Below are positions 17,008 through 48,560 of a DNA stretch of 64,000 bases, piece by piece. The DNA is from Lactobacillus johnsonii (GTDB taxonomy: Bacteria; Bacillota; Bacilli; Lactobacillales; Lactobacillaceae). The notes under the pieces are model-generated. The model saw only the letters and a program-made list of their open reading frames with translations, searched no databases and was not told the DNA's origin. Location of the stretch: contig NZ_CP047409.1 of assembly GCF_013487865.1 (NCBI RefSeq), forward strand, positions 1,674,001 to 1,738,000, written 5' to 3'. Each line of letters begins with the position of its first letter. The first letter of the stretch is position 1. The position numbers were made by a program, and so were the translations under genes.

Positions 17008-17466
17008 TTAATACTTCCGCTTTCCACCATTCTTTACAAAATTCCAACTTTCACGTGCATTTTTCTCGAGAACACTTAGATATTTTTGTAACCGAGCCTG
17101 TTCATCTTTAGTTAAGCCTTTTGTTACTAACGTATTTGAATAGACATTTTCTCTTTCTATTTCTTTAGCTAATTTTTTACCTGTGTCGGTTACAAATAAA
17201 TGTTTGATTTTCTTATTAGTTTCATCATCTTCTTTAAAAATAAGTCCCGCTCGTTCAAGTTTTCTAATTCCACGGGCAGTCGTTGTACGATCAATATTTA
17301 ATAAGGTAGCTAGGTGATCAGAAATAATCCCTGGGTGTTCAAAAACTCGAGTTAAATATAAGTATTGACCACGATTTAATTCCAAATCTTTAAACTCAAT
17401 GTTAGCAATCGAATCTAAGGCTCGTGAAATTGAACCAATTTCTCTTAAAGTATCTTCTTCTGCCAT
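17008..17466 (-). CDS. MarR-family transcriptional regulator
   Basis: 152 aa winged-helix regulator. The HTH reads HPGIISDHLATLLNIDRTTTARGIRKLERAGLIFKE, and the wing is DDETNKKIKHLFVTDTGKKLA. MarR proteins bind short palindromes as dimers and respond to small phenolic or other ligands. First gene of the MarR-GNAT-GNAT unit, with a 12-bp-arm palindrome in its promoter region that it shares with the divergent DUF1304 gene. Confidence 0.92.
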   Translation of the reverse strand: MAEEDTLREIGSISRALDSIANIEFKDLELNRGQYLYLTRVFEHPGIISDHLATLLNIDRTTTARGIRKLERAGLIFKEDDETNKKIKHLFVTDTGKKLAKEIERENVYSNTLVTKGLTKDEQARLQKYLSVLEKNARESWNFVKNGGKRKY

Positions 17467-45671: not shown

Positions 45672-46406
45672 TTAATACTCTGAAGCACCAGAACTTGTAT
45701 CAGTTTCTTCTTGCTTCTTTTCCACATGTTCTTCATGCTTAGATGCACCAGTTGCAATATCAACTCCATCTCTCTTATAAGTTGCACCAGTTGTAGCATC
45801 AGGATCATCTACTAGCTTTTGACCAGTAGTTTCACAGAAATATTTTACAAACGGATATATATCTTGTACCCATTCATAAGTTCCCACGTAATTTCCTTCA
45901 TCGTCTTCAATTCGCTTATAATCATGCAAAATTAATTTATGACGATTGCCATTAGGAACGGGCATTTTTACCTCATCATGACCATCTACCTTGTTTCTTA
46001 AAGCATAAATAACTTTCTTAGCCTCAGGAATTACATTGCGAATATCTGGGTGAACGGCGCCCATTGTATCACCAACTTGATCTGGCGTACGTTTGGCGAG
46101 CATTTTCTTATTTGGATCAGTTGGTCTGTTATACCACAAAAATTGGTTATTATCATCTACATAAGTTAATTCACCAAACGCACGACGTAACATCCAATTA
46201 ATTTGGTTAACGGTAAGAAGACCAGCATCCAATTTTACATAGTCGTCGCCTTCTGCTGCATGTACCTTTCTAGCAGCTTTGTTCAACCAATCTGGATCAT
46301 TTTTATCGATACCTTCGACCGTGTATCGGGATTTGCCGGTTGCATCAAAGTCTTCTTTAATATAATCTTCTTCTTTTAAATCTTGTAGCCATTTAGGTTC
46401 TGCCAT
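45672..46406 (-). CDS. PAS-domain-like protein, paralogue of the 33927 gene
   Basis: 244 aa soluble protein. A charged N-terminal extension (KWLQDLKEEDYIKEDFDATG) is followed by the shared core: DDYVKLDAGLLTVNQINWML, FGELTYVDDNNQFLWYNRP (PAS-like), HPDIRNVIPEAKKVIYALRN and VQDIYPFVKYFCETTGQKLVDDP. The C-terminal tail is acidic with two GAS(K/E) elements (GATYKRDGVDIATGAS and GASEY). Function not known. The shared blocks with the smaller protein at 33927 indicate duplication. Confidence 0.75.
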   Translation of the reverse strand: MAEPKWLQDLKEEDYIKEDFDATGKSRYTVEGIDKNDPDWLNKAARKVHAAEGDDYVKLDAGLLTVNQINWMLRRAFGELTYVDDNNQFLWYNRPTDPNKKMLAKRTPDQVGDTMGAVHPDIRNVIPEAKKVIYALRNKVDGHDEVKMPVPNGNRHKLILHDYKRIEDDEGNYVGTYEWVQDIYPFVKYFCETTGQKLVDDPDATTGATYKRDGVDIATGASKHEEHVEKKQEETDTSSGASEY

Positions 46407-46550
46407 TTTATTTCACCTCATAAATCTACATCTCTTCAACCTGATTATACCCACTAACGAAAAGGCTTGCAATGCTTATATACAGTATTTTACATATAAA
46501 GTTGGCATAATATATATTTATGGAATATAGATTATTTTTTAAATTAAGTG

Positions 46551-46579
46551 TTGACTAAAAGTAAGTTGTACGATAATAT
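46551..46579 (+). promoter_or_regulatory. Promoter of the cystine transporter leader
   Basis: -35 TTGACT (46551-46556) and -10 TAATAT (46574-46579), spacer 17 bp. Predicted start near 46586 gives a short 5' UTR before the leader peptide's AAAGGAG. Confidence 0.65.
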
Positions 46580-46600
46580 AGCTTGTGAAAAGTAAGAAAG

Positions 46601-46696
46601 GAGCTAATGATTATGTTTAATGTACGTCAAGCAAATTCTTGTTGTTGTAATTGTCAAAAAAATTTGGCAATTATTTGGCGTACAGTCATTAGTTCA
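46601..46696 (+). promoter_or_regulatory. Nested leader hairpins around the Cys codons
   Basis: Three helices nest: GAGCTAATGA (46601-46610) with TCATTAGTTC (46687-46696), covering the leader RBS; TGTACGTCAA with TTGGCGTACA (near 46620 and 46674-46685); and AATTGTCAAA with TTTGGCAATT. The TGT codons lie in the asymmetric loop between the second and third. Confidence 0.5.
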
Positions 46697-46717
46697 TTCA
46701 AGAATTTCTCTAGTTAG
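46607..46717 (+). CDS. 36-aa cysteine-rich leader peptide of the cystine transporter
   Basis: AAAGGAG (46597-46603) then ATG 46607 (or 46613). The peptide MIMFNVRQANSCCCNCQK continues NLAIIWRTVISSFKNFSS and stops at TAG 46715. Four of five codons at 46640-46654 are TGT (Cys-Cys-Cys-Asn-Cys). The peptide is otherwise unlike a known toxin or bacteriocin. It ends about 40 nt before an intrinsic terminator that precedes the cystine transporter gene. The layout is a leader-peptide attenuator: ribosome stalling at Cys codons in low cysteine would change the RNA fold and allow read-through. Confidence 0.7.
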   Translation: MIMFNVRQANSCCCNCQKNLAIIWRTVISSFKNFSS

Positions 46718-46756
46718 AAACTAGCTTTTCAAAGTTATAACTATGGTTTTTCTCAC

Positions 46757-46789
46757 GAGCTGTTGGCATTAGGCCAATGGCTCTTTTTT
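46757..46789 (+). terminator. Attenuator terminator before the cystine transporter
   Basis: Arms GAGCTGTTGGC (46757-46767) and GCCAATGGCTC (46773-46783) pair over 11 bp (two G-U), loop ATTAG, followed by six T (46784-46789). It lies 28 nt before the transporter start codon and cannot end any other gene. Confidence 0.88.
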
Positions 46790-46816
46790 GTTTGCTTAGA
46801 ATTGGAGTTGAATAAA

Positions 46817-48205
46817 GTGCAAACTACTCTCGTTGTTTTAATGGCCATCGCGATTCTAGCTGGTATGGCTTACTTACATAAAAAGAATTGGGGATTTACT
46901 AAATTAGTATTCCTCTCCCTTATCGTCGGAATCGTCTTTGGTGTTTCCCTTCAATTAATGTTCGGTGCTAACAGTAACATTGTAAAAAATAGTATCGACT
47001 GGATTTCCATTGTTGGGGATGGCTATGTTTCCTTACTACAAATGCTAGTAATTCCTCTAATCTTTGTGTCTTTAGTTGGAGCCTTCACTCAACTAAAAAT
47101 GACTACTAAGATTAGAAAAATTGCTACCAGTGTTTTAGCTATTTTATTAGGAACTACAGCTGTTGCTTCCTTCTTAGGCTTCAGTAGTGTCGCTATTTTT
47201 AATTTAGGTGGTGCTGGCTTTGCTAAAGGAATATCTGCATCCTCCACTGCTCTTACCTCTATTAAAGATCATCAAGCTCAATTAAAAGGCTTGACCCTTC
47301 CTCAACAAATAACATCCTTCTTCCCGCAAAATATTTTTGCAGATTTTGCTGGAATGCGTTCAACTAGCACAATTGCAGTAGTAATTTTCTCTATTTTTGT
47401 CGGAATTGCATTCTTACAGATTAAGAAGGAAAAAGCAAACGTTGCTGCTACATTTGCACGTGGTATTCAAGCCCTACGTGCGGTTATCATGCGCATAGTT
47501 AAGATTGTACTTGAACTCACTCCTTACGGAATTTTTGCTTTGATTGCTAGAACTACTGCAACTAACAGTTTTGCCACAATGAGTAAACTACTAGTCTTTA
47601 TTGTTGCAGCTTACCTTGCGATTGCTGTTATGTTCATTGTTCATGCAGTTCTACTTTTAATTAACGGAATTAATCCAATTACCTACTTCAGGAAAGCATG
47701 GCCAGTTTTAGTCTTTGCTTTCACTTCGAGAACTAGTGGTGGTAGTTTACCACTTAATGTACGTACTCAACGTGAATCAATGGGAGTAAGTGATACCATT
47801 GCCGACTTTGCCGCTAGCTTTGGTTTAACCATTGGTCAAAATGGATGTGCAGGTATTTATCCATCAATGGTAGCAGCAATCACTGCCCCACTTGTTGGAG
47901 TTAACATTTTCTCATGGCAATTTGTTTTAAGTTTAGTTGTAATTGACGTTATTTCTAGTTTCGGTGTTGCCGGTGTTGGTGGCGGTGCTACCTTTACTAC
48001 TCTAATGGTCTTAGGTGCTCTTAACCTACCAGTAACAGTTTTAGGTGTTTTAATTGCCATTGACCCAGTTGTTGATATGGCCAGAACTGCCCTTAACGTT
48101 AACGATTCAATGGTTGCTGGTGTTATTACTGCTAAGCGTACCGGAGAACTAAACTGGAATACTTTTAATAATGAAAAATCTGATGTAGATGCTGAAGTTG
48201 AATAA
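46817..48205 (+). CDS. tcyP: L-cystine symporter, TcyP-like (dicarboxylate/amino acid:cation symporter family)
   Basis: 462 aa with about nine hydrophobic helices. The DAACS family hallmarks are the serine-rich re-entrant loop FTSRTSGGSLPLNVRTQRESMGVSDTIADFAASFGLTIGQNGCAG, and FGVAGVGGGATFTTLMVLG; the length and SGGSLPLNVR motif agree with TcyP cystine carriers. I chose GTG 46817 (VQTTLVVLMAIA) because GGAG (46804-46807) lies 9 nt upstream and the long ORF would extend into the terminator stem. Expression is probably set by the cysteine-leader attenuator directly upstream. Confidence 0.82.
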   Translation: MQTTLVVLMAIAILAGMAYLHKKNWGFTKLVFLSLIVGIVFGVSLQLMFGANSNIVKNSIDWISIVGDGYVSLLQMLVIPLIFVSLVGAFTQLKMTTKIRKIATSVLAILLGTTAVASFLGFSSVAIFNLGGAGFAKGISASSTALTSIKDHQAQLKGLTLPQQITSFFPQNIFADFAGMRSTSTIAVVIFSIFVGIAFLQIKKEKANVAATFARGIQALRAVIMRIVKIVLELTPYGIFALIARTTATNSFATMSKLLVFIVAAYLAIAVMFIVHAVLLLINGINPITYFRKAWPVLVFAFTSRTSGGSLPLNVRTQRESMGVSDTIADFAASFGLTIGQNGCAGIYPSMVAAITAPLVGVNIFSWQFVLSLVVIDVISSFGVAGVGGGATFTTLMVLGALNLPVTVLGVLIAIDPVVDMARTALNVNDSMVAGVITAKRTGELNWNTFNNEKSDVDAEVE

Positions 48206-48258: not shown

Positions 48259-48560
48259 AACAAAATTAATTAAAGCTTAGAAAAGATGAGTAATTACTTA
48301 AGGCATCCCCCAGAGAGTCGGATTAGGTGCAAGCCGATGTTGCTGACGTAATGAAGATGGTCTTGGAGCTAAATTAAAGTGCAAGCTAATTTAAGTAAGC
48401 AGTTTACGATTGACGTTCGTTATCATGTCCGAGTCTTCCAAATTTTGGAGTACTCAGTGAGGAATTAATTGTAAGATTAATTTGAATGCAGGGTGGTAAC
48501 ACGCTATTAAGCGTCCCTAGTGTAGTTTAAAAACTATACTTGGGGCGCTTTTTCTTTTGC
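48259..48560 (+). promoter_or_regulatory. T-box riboswitch upstream of the MetE-like/luxS operon
   Basis: Stem I elements AGAGAGTCGGATTAGGTGCAAGCCG-type bases start near 48313. The T-box core AGGGTGGTAACACG is at 48490-48503, and the terminator GCGTCCC...GGGGCGC with T-run is at 48511-48554. The segment GACGTAATGAAGATGG (near 48350) offers ATG as the specifier, which fits Met and the downstream MetE-like gene. Uncharged tRNA-Met should turn the operon on. Confidence 0.92.

Follow-up and report, generated by a model that had tools for sequence, protein, structure and literature searches.

Cysteine-Codon Leader Peptides before a Cystine Transporter Gene of Lactobacillus johnsonii and before Transsulfuration Operons of Lactobacillales Point to Transcription Attenuation

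In a 64,000-nucleotide (nt) stretch of the Lactobacillus johnsonii genome (contig NZ_CP047409.1, positions 1,674,001 to 1,738,000; hereafter the window), the gene for a predicted TcyP-type cystine importer is preceded by a short open reading frame (ORF) with the codon run TGT TGT TGT AAT TGT and by an intrinsic terminator. On the basis of sequence comparison and folding models, we are highly confident that this leader is a classical ribosome-mediated transcription attenuator that would sense the charging of tRNA-Cys and control the importer. By its sequence, the window locus is one of a wide set of putative Lactobacillales Cys leaders, most of which were found standing before the transsulfuration operon. 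All the features of an attenuator that can be read from sequence are present, namely an ORF led by a Shine-Dalgarno (SD) sequence, conserved Cys codons, a terminator, an alternative antiterminator (by folding) and a cysteine gene downstream. With its parts present and conserved and the downstream gene TcyP-like, the cysteine-codon attenuator proposed in the original prediction for this element gains support.

Anatomy of the Leader and Identity of the Transporter

The features described here lie on the forward strand. A promoter-like pair (46551-46579), aligned in relatives, consists of a -35 hexamer TTGACT (46551-46556) and a -10 hexamer TAATAT (46574-46579) separated by a 17-nt spacer, and the inferred transcript start at 46586 gives a predicted 5' untranslated region (5'UTR) of about 27 nt before the ATG at 46613. 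The SD sequence GGAG (46600-46603) lies 9 nt ahead of this ATG, which opens a 34-codon ORF (46613-46717, stop TAG at 46715-46717) encoding the peptide MFNVRQANSCCCNCQKNLAIIWRTVISSFKNFSS, whose N-terminal part reads MFNVRQANSCCCNCQ. The putative regulatory codons, Cys-Cys-Cys-Asn-Cys, occupy 46640-46654. Farther downstream, the 5' arm of the intrinsic terminator (segment 3, 46757-46767) forms an 11-bp stem with the 3' arm (46773-46783), which together with a T6 tract constitutes segment 4 (46773-46789). The symporter gene (46817-48205) begins with a GTG codon 27 nt beyond the T run.

The original prediction had named the -35/-10 pair with its 17-nt spacing, the SD, the ORF with its Cys codons and the 11-bp terminator with six T residues, all of which are borne out in the sequence. 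It had left the start codon open between 46607 and 46613. Judged from sequence, 46613 is most likely because its SD spacing is 9 nt as against 3 nt for 46607, and because the first ATG is absent in the diverged relatives G013 and G085; a 36-codon version from 46607 is thereby disfavored. Against shuffles, a 6-kb scan showed no excess of promoter-like sites (19 vs. 22.7 expected) or of terminator-like sites (2 vs. 3.3 expected); the promoter and terminator calls are therefore based on where the sites lie, on the length of the stem and on conservation.

The 215 nt from 46586 to 46800 fold at -65.7 kcal/mol (z = -5.8), a value reached by none of 200 shuffles. The predicted fold recovers the three nested helices of the original prediction, with the outermost covering the leader SD. 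In an alignment of ten relatives, to which the pairing percentages of the window helices refer, the outermost helix has 91.7% of its cells paired and joins segment 1, the SD-containing arm GAGCTAATGAT (46601-46611), to segment 2, the predicted antiterminator strand GTCATTAGTTC (46685-46695), which lies within the ORF 3' of the Cys codons. The middle helix (46621-46629 with 46676-46684) is 100% paired, the inner helix (46648-46658 with 46663-46673), which overlaps the fourth Cys codon, 93.1%, and the terminator stem 99.1%.

The downstream gene product belongs to the SDF family and has 43% identity over 452 amino acids to Escherichia coli TcyP, annotated as a cystine/sulfocysteine:cation symporter, with its closest match among species-named records in Lactobacillus johnsonii ATCC 33200 (98%). 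By this similarity it is a predicted TcyP-type cystine importer, which would serve the amino acid of the leader codons. The window genome (1.995 Mb) has only one PF01053 match, weak and partial at 30.2 bits, and no match to cysK2 at E 1e-70, so cystine import should matter to this organism.

Conservation before Cystine Transporter Genes

Of 75 genomes in the genus, 11 yielded the leader in a peptide search, each time ahead of the same transporter; in G085 and G086 this order was established by reading the DNA. Across the ten aligned relatives, all changes in the Cys codons are synonymous TGT/TGC swaps, affecting three of the four, and the stem pairs are kept while the remainder of the peptide drifts, the pattern that the alignment suggested in the original prediction was meant to reveal. 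The window strain carries a pair of 1-nt indels that preserve the reading frame, and in G085 and G013 (transporter 81% identical) the peptide is largely rewritten with CCCNCQ retained.

Beyond the genus, 22 of 35 transporter orthologue loci in Lactobacillaceae have, no more than 500 nt upstream, an SD-led ORF with at least three Cys in five codons (four orthologues without loci were left out of this survey), and at one further locus, L077, five Cys fall into two groups. By eye, peptides from different genera have little in common beyond the Cys cluster, which takes the forms CCCNC, CCACC, CCPCC, CQCMCC, MMCCC, MKMCCC and CCCTC. The leader peptide of Limosilactobacillus panis, MTNAIFAKAATCCACCANANMLFALPYDYSAGRRQS, is accompanied by a terminator and by a helix of its own that sequesters the SD, and in Limosilactobacillus there are three nested helices of other sequence with the SD again within the outermost.

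Several leaderless loci carry features of their own. At L072 a T-box above the Rfam threshold (1101-1333) stands in the place of the Cys leader, and T-boxes were seen there by eye at L064, L069 and L070, the four loci representing two genera. A Cys T-box replacing the leader was the expectation and was rejected for the matched T-box at L072, as its specifier position reads AUG and hence, by the usual T-box anatomy, presumably specifies Met. Group II intron matches (RF02001, RF01998) occur near the transporter at L070 (1042-1364), apparently inside the T-box region. At L007, L008 and L010, which are without a Cys leader, a common CCUUUA-like segment upstream may, by eye, pair around the SD, and is perhaps an undescribed translational switch. 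In a small-genome genus (L074, L075) the leaderless transporter gene lies close behind an upstream gene and by eye seems operonic.

In G079 (L036, about 1200-1440) an apparent transposase gene ends, by eye, just upstream of the leader promoter; the leader-transporter unit has therefore been kept despite a changed upstream neighbor. In several leaders (46551-46600 and relatives, by eye) the sequence AAAAGTAA occurs just 3' of the -35 box and again 5' of the SD; it is also seen after the -35 box in L. panis and before cysK2 of L. fermentum, and is possibly an operator or RNA element.

Alternative Pairings and Proposed Mechanism

Computation establishes the parts of the window leader, their conservation, the constraint on the Cys codons and the alternative pairings. 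Segments 1 and 3 start identically with GAGCU, and segment 2 can therefore pair with either, the duplex energies being -12.2 (1:2), -9.4 (2:3) and -16.7 kcal/mol (3:4). With a ribosome assumed on the Cys run, folding only the RNA from its front edge to the end of segment 3 gives the 2:3 helix a pairing probability of 0.90; 99% of the cells of this helix are paired across the ten relatives versus 20-57% when it is slid. The antiterminator strand, which the original prediction had left open, can on this model be named as 46685-46695, pairing with the terminator 5' arm.

Stalled and free RNAs were compared for 151 of 184 leaders (187 collected minus the three spurious ones L069, L280 and L281), namely the leaders of ordinary spacing for which a terminator had been detected. 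Among the transporter leaders, segment 3 was sequestered more with a stalled ribosome than in the free RNA in 18 of 22 (means 0.68 vs. 0.35, and 0.52 with the middle shuffled), and sequestration in the stalled state exceeded the shuffled control in 17 of 22.

We infer stalling, timing, readthrough and a cysteine response at the window locus, which would operate as follows. When cysteine is plentiful, the ribosome would pass the Cys codons and cover segment 2, making it unavailable to segment 3, so that the 3:4 terminator would form and the transporter would be off. When cysteine is short, the ribosome would halt on the Cys run and the nested 1:2 hairpin could not form; the freed segment 2 would then pair with the terminator 5' arm (2:3), allowing polymerase to enter the transporter gene. 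Without translation, 1:2 would form and termination would be the default.

Cys Leaders before the Transsulfuration Operon

Expression of the cysK2-ctl1-cysE2 operon of L. paracasei FAM18149 in cysteine-deficient medium is described as exceeding that in methionine-deficient medium by log2 2.9-3.2 (about 8-fold); also described are high read coverage of its 5'UTR, suspected premature termination and a terminator spanning the motif AAGGGCGCGAAA-N16-TTTCGCGCCCTT (PMC6004538). The same source mentions an earlier study in which cysteine represses this operon of L. paracasei, and terms the mechanism of cysteine control in FAM18149 "yet to be discovered" (PMC6004538). Because this operon responds to cysteine by an undiscovered mechanism, we inspected transsulfuration genes. 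On the FAM18149 plasmid, an SD-led leader ORF encoding MMSQSMFNAINCCCRTTRFWRCSAC is followed by exactly the terminator with this motif. Eight of 37 matched plasmid records were examined; the leader is present in four further Lacticaseibacillus records among them, and leaders with other peptides occur in L. fermentum and Enterococcus faecalis records. A copy in Priestia megaterium, outside the order, has no leader. Among PF01053 loci of two genera, Cys-run ORFs precede the operon in 7 of 60 scanned (L090-L149); two further Cys-rich ORFs at L105 are chance-like.

A wider survey covered the regions upstream of cysK2 (cysK2/cbs-ctl-cysE operon) in Lactobacillaceae. Of 125 places there, 105 were taken as cysK2; 3 partial matches were discarded, and 17 paralogues of low identity formed the control set. 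At least three Cys in five codons were found in 77 of the 105 regions, two Cys in 25 and fewer in 3; two of these last three have a CCC leader without a clear SD, and the contig of the other is cut at 136 nt. Five other Lactobacillales families gave a similar picture, with at least three Cys in 48 of 60 genomes, two in 7 and fewer in 5 (60 places, the 13 Lactobacillaceae places of that search having been counted already). The single case of the original prediction was therefore too small a view, the same device standing before the transsulfuration operon in these many regions. A terminator-like hairpin follows the leader in 155 of 187 regions versus 3 of 187 when shuffled, and the 18 cysK2 loci compared with Rfam gave no match at the gathering threshold.

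A chance origin of the Cys clusters was considered and rejected. By the same measure of at least three Cys in five codons, reverse strands yielded none at the 35 transporter loci, none in the 105 Lactobacillaceae cysK2 regions (19 of 2,100 shuffles) and none in the 60 regions of other families; paralogous cysK genes yielded 0 of 17, one of them having two Cys, and of the 305 SD-led ORFs of 6-60 amino acids in the window only two qualified, the leader and an ORF at 17423.

When the FAM18149 leader is modelled with a ribosome at the first Cys codon, the RNA as far as the terminator 5' arm takes the form of a single long antiterminator (-41.4 kcal/mol), with leader CGCGUUUUU paired to terminator AAGGGCGCG; the free RNA instead forms the hairpin CGAACA/UGUUCG directly 3' of the Cys run. 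In 25 leaders of this type, which were picked by sequence pattern and not at random, pairing reaches 96.9% in the hairpin (10 cells with two-sided changes), 88.9% in the antiterminator (9 cells) and 91.1% in the terminator (7 cells). None of 500 shuffles reached any of the three covariation scores, a kind of score that relatedness can inflate. Pairs with two-sided changes (2 per helix) were matched by 293, 248 and 72 of 500 shuffles for the hairpin, antiterminator and terminator, respectively, and sliding by two or three columns leaves up to 71-72% paired for antiterminator and terminator. For the cysK leaders of other families, the stalled state exceeded the free state in 48 of 55 (0.65 stalled, 0.45 free, 0.56 shuffled) and the shuffled control in 40 of 55.

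Evidence against Attenuation and Alternative Explanations

Several results weigh against attenuation as proposed here. At the window locus, folding with segment 4 included favors the terminator at equilibrium, with a 2:3 probability of 0.07 downstream of the stalled ribosome, and the switch must therefore be kinetic, depending on the order of synthesis. The duplex of segments 2 and 3 is moderately unusual (91 of 2,000 shuffles are as low), and covariation is weak, 13-14 of 500 shuffles reaching the scores in an alignment of ten close relatives with few two-sided changes. Twelve of the 35 transporter orthologues are without a leader, counting two with truncated upstream DNA (L068, with about 117 nt of contig upstream and a slice within the gene, and L071, with 305 nt), and some leaderless orthologues bear a T-box instead. 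None of the 11 distant orthologues in other families (L007-L017, 32-52% identity) has an ORF of the kind used to recognize the leaders. For the Lactobacillaceae cysK2 leaders, the stalled state exceeded the free state in only 15 of 74 (18-nt footprint) and the shuffled control in only 9 of 74, with means of 0.30 stalled, 0.50 free and 0.49 shuffled; the result varies with the assumed footprint, from 0.57 at 10 nt to 0.19 at 21 nt. In FAM18149 the antiterminator starts 16 nt past the first nucleotide of the first Cys codon, and the failure of this test may be because the antiterminator begins only that far on.

The Cys cluster is kept across leaders, and in Enterococcus faecalis the Cys leader peptide of the cysK-cgl operon is annotated as a hypothetical protein (WP_002355203.1; L183, 2274-2411 of NZ_CP143580.1), as might suit a Cys-rich micro-protein with a function of its own, such as metal or redox binding, the hairpins being incidental. 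We consider this very improbable given 163 distinct peptides among the 184 leaders, the little that transporter leaders of different genera share by eye except the Cys cluster, indels that alter the C-terminal part, leaders as short as 10 residues (MKMCCCIMSK in G042) and the terminator-like hairpin trailing most leaders. The position of the leaders before cysteine genes partly reflects how they were sought, as all surveyed regions were drawn from in front of such genes.

Attenuation might also bypass the intrinsic terminator and act on translation of the transporter or by way of Rho. Such routes have been considered for mycobacterial cys leaders, whose ORFs are described as lacking conserved terminators (PMC1262725). 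The transporter SD indeed lies in a small local hairpin beyond the terminator; in the fold of 46586-46840, however, it pairs only with nearby downstream bases and not with the leader, and both the strong terminator with six T residues and the alternative helix are retained in relatives, which leaves such a route unlikely. A leader RNA that binds a ligand or tRNA (riboswitch or T-box), with a fortuitous ORF, is suggested by the T-boxes before some orthologues of the same transporter. We give this almost no credence for the window locus, where an Rfam search of 46400-46900 with E up to 5 returned only a human long noncoding RNA family far below threshold, the T-box covariance model RF00230 had no match in the same interval, and helix sequences vary between genera with the Cys codons kept. 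Intrinsic termination governed by a ribosome on the Cys codons is the reading that we retain.

Other Features of the Window

Just downstream of the transporter gene, a T-box leader (48269-48521; RF00230, 101.7 bits) precedes both a gene resembling B12-independent methionine synthase and luxS, an arrangement that the yxjH-luxS unit of L. paracasei resembles as it is described (PMC6004538). The ORF at 17423 encodes MKLNQFLLKYLLLPSLCLSLLFVCSSICYYCCKYNNNKK; apart from the leader, no SD-led short ORF of the window but this one reaches three Cys in five codons.

Implications

Cysteine attenuation is probably old and order-wide in Lactobacillales: it would control the transsulfuration operon in the majority of species with that operon, would have arisen separately ahead of the cystine transporter gene in several lineages (Met T-boxes standing there in others), and would account for the cysteine response of cysK2-ctl1-cysE2 in cheese lactobacilli. 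The MMSQSMFNAINCCCRTTRFWRCSAC leader upstream of the noted FAM18149 terminator is a testable answer to an unexplained cysteine control and could explain the known response. How lactic acid bacteria regulate cysteine matters for growth and redox balance and for the sulfur flavor of cheese. As the Cys leaders indicate, many short ORFs are probably translated. Cys leader peptides in Lactobacillales are not described among the literature matches listed, which covered few subscription journals and no preprints, and a prior mention is possible.

Comparison with Known Systems

The his, trp and leu operons are controlled by ribosome-mediated attenuators with leader peptides rich in the regulated codon. 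The window leader is like them in its short ORF with a run of regulated codons, its 1:2, 2:3 and 3:4 helices and its intrinsic terminator before the first gene, and unlike them in its amino acid (cysteine), its transporter target, its lactic acid bacterial host and a segment 1 that is the arm containing the leader's own SD. Mycobacteria have leaderless, cysteine-responsive polycysteine short ORFs (Canestrari 2020, as cited in PMC9031893 and PMC13236596), which are described as similarly placing contiguous Cys codons upstream of operons. These ORFs are leaderless and said to regulate downstream translation, whereas in the window leader a predicted 5'UTR with an SD comes before the ORF and an intrinsic terminator after it; a leaderless start was not found at the window locus, where the SD at 46600-46603 precedes an ATG about 27 nt from the inferred start site.

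The uORFC-8-2 motif before cysS in Rhodobacterales is described as combining two tandem Cys codons with a terminator and is proposed to involve stalling without charged tRNA-Cys (PMC8632094); it differs in belonging to Alphaproteobacteria and in its target, cysS. In Actinobacteria, candidate leader peptides with runs of Cys codons stand ahead of cys or cbs genes and, unlike the window leader, are reported without conserved terminators (PMC1262725). Within the lactobacilli themselves, Met and Cys T-boxes are described as controlling sulfur amino acid genes by termination (PMC6004538). The window leader would likewise sense tRNA charging and act by termination, but in those T-boxes the tRNA binds the RNA directly and there is no ORF. 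According to a 2010 account, leader-peptide systems had not yet been shown outside Proteobacteria and Actinobacteria, ermC excepted (PMC2965389); such systems appear from the present survey to be widespread in one order of Firmicutes.

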